A program made the position numbers and the translations under genes. The notes beneath the pieces were generated by a model. It was not told the origin of the DNA and did not search any database. It saw nothing but the letters and a program-made list of their open reading frames with translations. A DNA stretch of 64,000 nt from Branchiostoma floridae (lineage: Eukaryota; Chordata; Leptocardii; Amphioxiformes; Branchiostomatidae): NCBI RefSeq assembly GCF_000003815.2, contig NC_049980.1, positions 20,586,238 to 20,650,237 on the forward strand. The letters are read 5' to 3'. Of this stretch, positions 2,228-3,627 are shown piece after piece (the first letter of the stretch is position 1; each line of letters begins with the position of its first letter).

Positions 2228-3627
2228 CACGAGAAAACAACCCTCGTCGTGCCTTCCTTCTCGCCAAGCTGAGCTCCAAGCCCAGTCCTGACGAACAGGA
2301 ACAGAAAAGTCCCAGCTTGAGCGCTTTCCTTCGGAAATTCAGCAAGTTTGGCCCGGACCTAGGGGAGAAGACCCAGCCCAGTCCTCAGCGGAGCATCGCT
2401 CCCCCACCGAGGATAAAACCCAGGTTACTTGGAGATGTCCGACTTGTCTTTAATGTGAGCGGTCGCCGCTTCGAGACATGGAAGAGCACGCTGGACAAAT
2501 TACCGGACACTTTTCTGGGAAGCACGGAGAAAGAAGCTTACTTCGACGATGACACCAAGGAATACCACTTTAACAGGGACCCTGAGATTTTCAGGTATAT
2601 TTTGAATTATTACCGGACTGGTCAGCTACACTACCCTAAGTGCGAGTGCATAGATGCATACGACGCGGAACTGAATTTCTTCGGTCTTTCTGAATTTTCC
2701 ATCAGTGAATGCTGCTACGAAGACTACAGTGAGCACAAGAAGCAAAGACATGAACAGTTACAGGAGCTTCTGTTGCCCGTACTTAACGTGCCCACTAAAG
2801 CCACAACCTTGCGGCAGAAGATGTGGAGCATTCTAGACGGTTCGAACGAGTCGGGCCACCCCTTGGCCCCCCTGTGTTACTATACCACAGGATTCTTTAT
2901 AGCAGTGTCAGTTCTGGCCAACATAGCAGAAACGATTCAATGTGGGGCCCTGCCTGGGACCACAAAGATCCTCCATTGTGCAGATAGGTACCCGAAGGTT
3001 TTCTTTACCATCGACACAGTGTGCGTGGTGATGTTTACAGTGGAGTACGTGACGAGACTATACTCGACTCCAGACAGGGTCCGATTCGTCAGGAGTCCGA
3101 TGGGACTGGTAGACTTGGTGGCAATCTTACCCTACTACATCGGGTTGTTTTTAATGTCTTCCAAAACGGAGCACGGTGGCTTTGACTCGCTCTTTGTCAC
3201 ACTAAGAATCTTACGCGTTTTTCGGGTCTTCAAAATAAGCAGACCGTCACAGGGACTACGGATTTTGGCTCAGACTATAAAAAGTTGCGTAGACGAGCTA
3301 GGGTTTCTCCTCTTGTCCTTCATGCTCGCCGTGGTTATGTTCTCGACATTCATGTTCTATGCGGAGAAACTCATGAAAGCACCTGTGACAGACTTCAAAA
3401 GCATCCCCGAAGGATTCTGGTTCATTTTAGTTACCATGACTACGCTAGGATATGGAGACATGCTACCGGTCACGTGGCTAGGAAAAGTTATGGCGGGAAT
3501 TTGTTCTCTCAGCGGAGTGATTTTGATCACCCTACCTGTGACAGTAATAGTGTCAAACTTCAATCGTTTGTACTGCCAAAATAACCCGGATATAGCCAAG
3601 TCTCCCGAGGCCACCCTGCTGGGATGA
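2188..3627 (+). CDS. Shal-like: Shal/Kv4-class voltage-gated potassium channel subunit with altered S6 gate motif
   Basis: The 479-residue product has a complete Kv layout in one uninterrupted frame. T1 (about 82-177) carries the non-Shaker zinc motif H-X5-C-X20-CC (H148, C154, C175, C176). S1 is about 231-250, S2 269-291, S3 304-323, S4 337-353 with five Arg/Lys at every third position, S5 369-392, the filter TLGYGD 419-424 and S6 434-457. T1, the S1 segment and the SQGLRIL linker are closest to Kv4/Shal. I chose ATG 2188 because it has a strong context and is the only in-frame ATG before T1; the frame is open back to 2026 but without another ATG. Oddities: the usual S6 Pro-Val-Pro reads Pro-Val-Thr (450-452); the hydrophobic Kv4 N-terminus that binds KChIP is absent; the C-terminus is very short (Kv4 is normally about 630-650 residues); and no intron interrupts T1 to S6. 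It may be a modulatory subunit or a retrocopy. An unseen upstream exon cannot be excluded. Confidence 0.93.
   Translation: [479 protein letters not shown]

Follow-up and report, generated by a model that had tools for sequence, protein, structure and literature searches.

The window, a stretch of 64,000 nucleotides of the Branchiostoma floridae genome (C2:20586238-20650237), contains an open reading frame (ORF) for a voltage-gated potassium (Kv) channel subunit close to its start. The ORF translates without a single internal stop codon from an ATG at position 2188 to a TGA ending at position 3627. Positions of the window are used throughout:

2171..2227, plus strand: remnant of the Shal N-terminus, out of frame; the ATG reads MATVTAWLMLLPLLDPSR followed by a stop, while the canonical amphioxus Shal (exon L003) starts MAAVAAWLPFARAAAIGW
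2188..3627, plus strand: single-exon ORF of a Shal-like Kv subunit, 479 amino acids plus stop (TGA 3625-3627), true start uncertain
2446..2712, plus strand: T1 tetramerisation domain (BTB_2, Pfam PF02214, 2.1e-26)
2629..2715, plus strand: T1 zinc motif H-X5-C-X20-CC, intact (His 2629-2631, Cys 2647-2649, CysCys 2710-2715)
2881..3579, plus strand: Ion_trans domain, S1-S6 (Pfam PF00520, 4.1e-38)
3193..3243, plus strand: S4 voltage sensor with Kv4-like charges
3442..3459, plus strand: selectivity filter TLGYGD
3514..3516, plus strand: S6 hinge glycine, a conserved position, retained here and absent from 10 of 18 paralogues
3532..3543, plus strand: S6 gate Leu-Pro-Val-Thr; the Thr codon ACA (3541-3543) replaces the second proline of the PXP motif

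A Shal-type gene with an altered S6 gate

At 3532-3543, the codons CTA CCT GTG ACA encode Leu-Pro-Val-Thr (LPVT), in frame within the uninterrupted Shal-type ORF; the Pro-X-Pro (PXP) motif of S6 that characterises canonical Kv4 alpha subunits is thus absent, with the gate reading PVT. The earlier note on this DNA had described exactly this, a Shal-class channel with LPVT in place of PVP and an intact filter, S4 and T1, and translation confirms all of it: TLGYGD, a Kv4-like S4 and the H-X5-C-X20-CC motif are all present. The assignment to the Shal class holds too: when the window protein was compared with the sequences of the PDB, the best eight Kv4.3 and Kv4.2 sequences scored between 464.6 and 468.9 bits, far above the best Kv2.1 (237.8 bits), and the gene is therefore of the Shal class. 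Identity to the canonical Shal of amphioxus is 57-58% across the core. The ACA codon is directly followed by a GT (3544), but PVT is not an artefact of an overlooked splice site, as the frame continues with clear S6 homology.

Several other ORFs were found in the window. Two neighbouring ORFs (41496-41957 and 49456-50034) encode bHLH domains (Pfam HLH, 2e-18 and 9.6e-16); they resemble Tcf21/Musculin and are presumably tandem paralogues. An ORF at 35351-35815 matches OHCU decarboxylase of the urate pathway (7.3e-22) and starts in the middle of the domain, so that it is probably one exon of a gene. A minisatellite-like repeat at 21600-22333 gives rise to long ORFs on both strands.

The two ends of the window gene

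Shal channels bind KChIP proteins with their N-terminal sequence MAxVAAWLPFARAAAIGW. This sequence is absent in frame from the window ORF, and its sole trace is MATVTAWL, read from an ATG at 2171 in a frame different from that of T1 and overlapping the in-frame ATG at 2188, just 17 bases downstream. Among all 2584 ATGs of the window (both strands), the one at 2171 is the best match to MAAVAAWL, with a BLOSUM62 score of 32 (next best: 19), and not one of 22137 ATGs of the base-shuffled window reached a score of 32; so the window gene still carries a piece of the Shal N-terminus, in a frame other than that of T1. The frameshift may have arisen in evolution, in this allele or in the assembly. Translation could begin at 2188; alternatively, the allele or the assembly has an indel, or a further exon lies upstream. 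At the other end, the ORF stops 27 codons past PVT and most of the Shal C-terminus, including the dileucine motif QHHHLL, is absent. A motif scan of the plus strand from 3401 to 20000 for a C-terminal exon, which a divergent exon would escape, gave only one unconvincing match (at 9021), and a missing C-terminal exon is thus unsupported.

A frameshifted N-terminus and a short C-terminus could mean that the window gene is a decaying pseudogene or misassembled. The out-of-frame Shal-like start would fit, and so would the change of frame within T1 of a paralogue (L011, see below), which indicates that single-base indels, real or caused by the assembly, do occur in this set of genes. Against this stand 479 stop-free codons in the face of saturated synonymous divergence and an in-frame ATG so close to the out-of-frame one, and we consider a pseudogene or a misassembly very improbable. 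The main result is independent of the window gene anyway, as the loss is found at the same residue in 17 further paralogues.

Shal genes of the amphioxus genome

The genome of the window (513 Mb, 431 contigs) was searched with two protein queries, the window protein (58 matches; the best 89 of 98 candidates scored) and the canonical Shal protein (69 matches; the best 99 of 111 candidates scored). Both returned the identical Shal set: one multi-exon canonical gene with PVP and at least 18 single-exon paralogues (the window gene L001, L002, L004-L018 and L033), a lower bound, as only the best candidates were scored. One canonical gene and 18 paralogues make 19, matching the number of Shal genes that Jegla and colleagues list for B. 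floridae (PMC3519636, Table 3).

Exon 1 of the canonical gene (L003) begins MAAVAAWLPFARAAAIGWVPIA and runs as far as the filter (TTLG). PVP is encoded by L031, the exon that follows at a distance of about 31 kb, and the dileucine motif FESQHHHLLRCLENTTV is found in a further exon about 13 kb beyond L031. The window protein shares the filter, S4 and T1 zinc motif with this canonical Shal (L003 and L031) and with Kv4.2 and Kv4.3 of the PDB; unlike the window gene, the canonical gene has PVP, introns in the pore and in the C-terminus, the N-terminal AWLPFARAAAIGW motif and the dileucine motif.

All 18 paralogues encode the region from the filter junction through S6 in one ORF, without the canonical pore intron. 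In 16 of them, a single frame extends from T1 onward; the exceptions are L011, whose reading frame shifts partway through T1 (around 1500-1600; real or from the assembly), and L033, which contains an internal assembly gap. Six paralogues (L002, L005, L007, L009, L010 and L011) have a dileucine-type motif within the same ORF. The absence of the pore intron, together with a motif in the same ORF that has its own exon in the canonical gene, gives these genes the appearance of retrocopies, and most likely the single-exon genes stem from a retrocopy of spliced Shal mRNA, other routes of intron loss being possible. Three paralogues (L002, L004 and L009) have no methionine ahead of T1 in the ORF, which points to upstream exons there. 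A scan of 17 family ORFs did not find the N-terminal motif AWLPFARAAA of canonical Shal in any of them, and it is also absent from the N-terminal piece of L033, which was viewed separately. In L002, a long in-frame minisatellite (repeat CEDLPVLRCCVRL) lies upstream and runs into the T1 ORF with no methionine in between.

The second PXP proline is lost in all single-exon Shal paralogues found

In all 18 paralogues found, the first proline of the gate is retained and the second is missing, replaced by threonine in 17 (PVT, PLT or PTT) and by serine in one (PVS in L012). The threonine of the window gene is thus common to the family and not private to this gene, and with the proline lost at the same residue in 17 other paralogues, neither a sequencing error nor a mutation of this gene alone accounts for the Thr codon. 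The canonical amphioxus Shal retains PVP. Outside the Shal class, the second proline is present in all 26 S6 segments that were read: 12 Shaker-like segments (L019-L030, with L020 and L022 near-identical), 11 further segments including the amphioxus Shab, and L037, L051 and L055. These 26 segments cover the matches of the genome search that extend to S6; L053 and L054 are T1 pieces only, and L055, which belongs to the gene of L052, reads PVP.

Origin of the family

Phylogenetic trees were constructed, the first one from an alignment without the PXP columns and with no KvS (Kv5, Kv6, Kv8, Kv9) sequence among its rows. The Shal clade of the full tree, which joins the window gene to Kv4 and sets it apart from Shaker and Shab, has a support of 100/100, in agreement with the class assignment of the window gene. 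Within this clade, the 18 paralogues lie on one side of a branch, albeit weakly (72/40; 81/81 without L012), and the AU test does not reject topologies in which canonical Shal and Kv4 are joined by L001 (p-AU 0.345) or by L012 (p-AU 0.216). In a reduced tree, for which 8 of 35 rows (L012, L017 and six Shaker-like sequences) were dropped after the first tree had been viewed, the 16 family rows still included form a single clade with a support of 97/98. A single change from proline to non-proline is enough on the first tree, and a single origin of the 18 paralogues is likely.

The earlier note had suggested that the window gene may encode a silent or modified-gating subunit that derives from Shal, independently of the Kv2 relatives with the same loss. 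The part on descent stood up: a clade that unites the 18 paralogues with Kv2.1 and both S1-S6 pieces of amphioxus Shab is rejected (p-AU 8.6e-7), which, together with the PDB scores, rules out that the window gene encodes a silent subunit of the Kv2 type.

Constraint on the threonine and further losses

The 17 paralogues with threonine use all four codons at this position (3 ACA, 7 ACC, 3 ACG and 4 ACT). When the 17 full paralogues (without L033) were compared with canonical Shal, just two columns of the T1-S6 core turned out to share one derived residue across 15 or more of the 17: the proline to threonine change (16/17) and a valine to leucine change six residues earlier (15/17). The threonine is thus the residue most uniformly common to the family, among proteins with a median pairwise identity of only 41% in the T1-S6 core (range 30-60%, 136 pairs), and this uniformity, despite the use of all four codons and maintained as synonymous sites became saturated, suggests that the threonine itself is selected. 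The window gene differs from canonical Shal at 66 of 96 fourfold sites, with a pS of 0.80 and a pN of 0.29, and coding constraint is evident in all ten pairs examined (pS 0.73-0.81). With synonymous sites this saturated, dating the expansion by dS was rejected. The loss of the second proline in 18 of 18 paralogues found, together with the coding constraint, means that it is neither chance nor a sequencing slip.

Other residues of the pore and of T1 are kept to different degrees. The GYG of the filter is present in all 18 paralogues, and S4 is Kv4-like in most, with alterations in L006, L008, L012 and L016-L018. The S6 hinge glycine is replaced by serine or cysteine in ten paralogues (L002, L005, L007, L009-L011, L013-L015 and L033), and the same ten have also lost the first cysteine of the T1 zinc site; they form one clade (support 100/99). 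The window gene and seven others have kept both.

These data bear on the main alternative to a modulatory function, namely that the paralogues form functional channels, as homomers or as heteromers with each other, in which the threonine tunes gating rather than being a silencing lesion; activation could be shifted, closed-state inactivation changed or sensitivity to 4-AP low. A filter and first proline retained throughout, an S4 that is mostly Kv4-like, a conserved threonine with scattered codons and, in the window gene, an intact hinge glycine and zinc site all speak for this alternative. The ten-gene clade, in contrast, has lost hinge glycine and zinc cysteine in addition to the proline. 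Mutants of human Kv1.1 help this alternative in part: with the second proline changed to serine (P405S) the channel still conducts, albeit with less current and a depolarised shift, while P405L has no measurable current (PMC9331732). Loss of the second proline, thus, does not always silence a channel. Changes of the PXP prolines to alanine are, however, poorly tolerated according to a review, and the vertebrate subunits with the same loss are silent on their own (see below). On balance, we regard conduction with altered gating as possible but rather doubtful.

Comparison with known silent and regulatory Kv subunits

PXP serves as a hinge of S6, and Kv5, Kv6, Kv8 and Kv9 all lack its second proline and do not form functional homotetramers (PMC4623978, PMC3440756). 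The full PXP motif is also missing from Kv7 subunits (PMC4623978). Like the amphioxus set, the vertebrate KvS (KCNF/G/V/S) have lost the second proline while keeping most other Kv hallmarks, and are expanded paralogues that exist alongside a canonical partner. The two differ in origin and size: KvS group with Kv2, while the amphioxus set falls inside Shal and its joining to Shab is rejected (in a tree without KvS), and there are at least 18 amphioxus genes for putative modulatory subunits but 10 mammalian KvS (PMC3519636).

Regulatory subunits are also described from cnidarians. The Shal-clade jShal-gamma of Polyorchis is silent alone and alters the current of heteromeric Kv4 channels (PMC3519636); like the amphioxus set it belongs to Shal, but it is cnidarian, and the comparison is with its published description and implies no orthology. 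Nematostella NvShakR resembles the amphioxus set in being a large lineage-specific expansion with regulatory beside conducting subunits (PMC3519636), but it is part of the Shaker (Kv1) subfamily.

A proposed modulatory function of the window protein

With a probability of roughly 57%, we propose a modulatory role for the window protein, as one subunit in heteromeric Shal channels, from a family of retrocopied Shal genes with a selected threonine. A retrocopied, spliced Shal (Kv4) mRNA would have founded the single-exon family in cephalochordates, the second PXP proline would have changed to threonine in the founder, and selection would have held the threonine during the expansion. We infer that the subunits join the single canonical PVP Shal in heterotetramers, with altered opening, inactivation or surface level of the channel, and that alone they would give little or no current. 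In the best reading, by analogy, the family works like vertebrate Kv5, Kv6, Kv8 and Kv9 without being derived from Kv2. A modulatory function is supported by the absence of the same proline from all four vertebrate silent subfamilies and by the precedent of a Shal-clade regulatory subunit in Polyorchis. It is weakened by the facts that Kv1.1 P405S and Kv7 subunits conduct and that the branch uniting the family has low support, and also by the window gene having no in-frame Shal N-terminus and little of the C-terminus.

The paralogues could also be non-conducting brakes: instead of shaping the gating of canonical Shal, they would combine with it and either suppress its current or keep it back in the ER. 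Mutants of the first PXP proline, Kv1.1 P403A and Kv1.2 P405L, are indeed dominant-negative (PMC9331732), and an in-frame Shal N-terminus of the KChIP-binding type is missing. Yet, 18 diverse copies, with constraint in every pair examined and GYG in every copy, suggest that permeation matters in at least some of them, and we think it improbable that brakes are all there is.

If window protein and relatives are modulatory, the second PXP proline would be a repeatable switch from conducting to modulatory subunits, used separately in the Kv2 group of vertebrates and in the Shal class of amphioxus. The losses in the ten-gene clade would then preserve a graded route from conduction to modulation within one genome, and the one canonical Shal found as partner would allow combinatorial control of A-type current. 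That a single retrocopied Shal gave rise to an 18-member cephalochordate family of silent or modulatory Kv4 subunits by the same step as in vertebrate KvS, with a graded ten-gene clade and one partner, is a broader proposition that seems to us evenly poised. The count of 19 Shal genes, published but so far unexplained, could then be read in terms of function, one gene being the partner and the other 18 the candidates, and the paralogues, some of which have the hinge glycine and the zinc site and some of which do not, supply naturally occurring gate variants with which to probe what silences Kv subunits. The Shal gene count and the existence of silent and regulatory Kv subunits were known; what seems to be new is that a large set arose from Shal and is marked by a proline to threonine change. 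Among the papers listed in literature searches, none was seen to describe this change at the S6 gate of Shal genes in amphioxus, and the main text of PMC3519636 makes no use of the term PXP.

Other Kv genes of amphioxus

Six of the 26 non-Shal S6 segments (L026, L037, two in L048, one in L049 and L051) lack the first proline and keep the second, a mirror image of the Shal family; the gates read VMP, GIP, LIP, LMP, ICP and GIP. L037 and L051, both on C16, are Kv-like segments with the filter INIGYGD and the S6 sequence CLGIPEFMECY (GIP). The near-identical Shaker-like L020 and L022 (C4, 27.38 and 27.52 Mb) are about 140 kb apart and represent either a recent duplicate or an unmerged haplotype; according to PMC3519636, what the expanded Shaker genes of amphioxus do was still to be studied. 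Table 3 of the same paper gives a Shab count of zero for B. floridae, in contrast to the Shab (Kv2) piece L035 (C2:2764500-2767500), which has PIP and scores 395 bits to Kv2.1. The T1 piece L054, about 50 kb from L035, may be an exon of the same gene.
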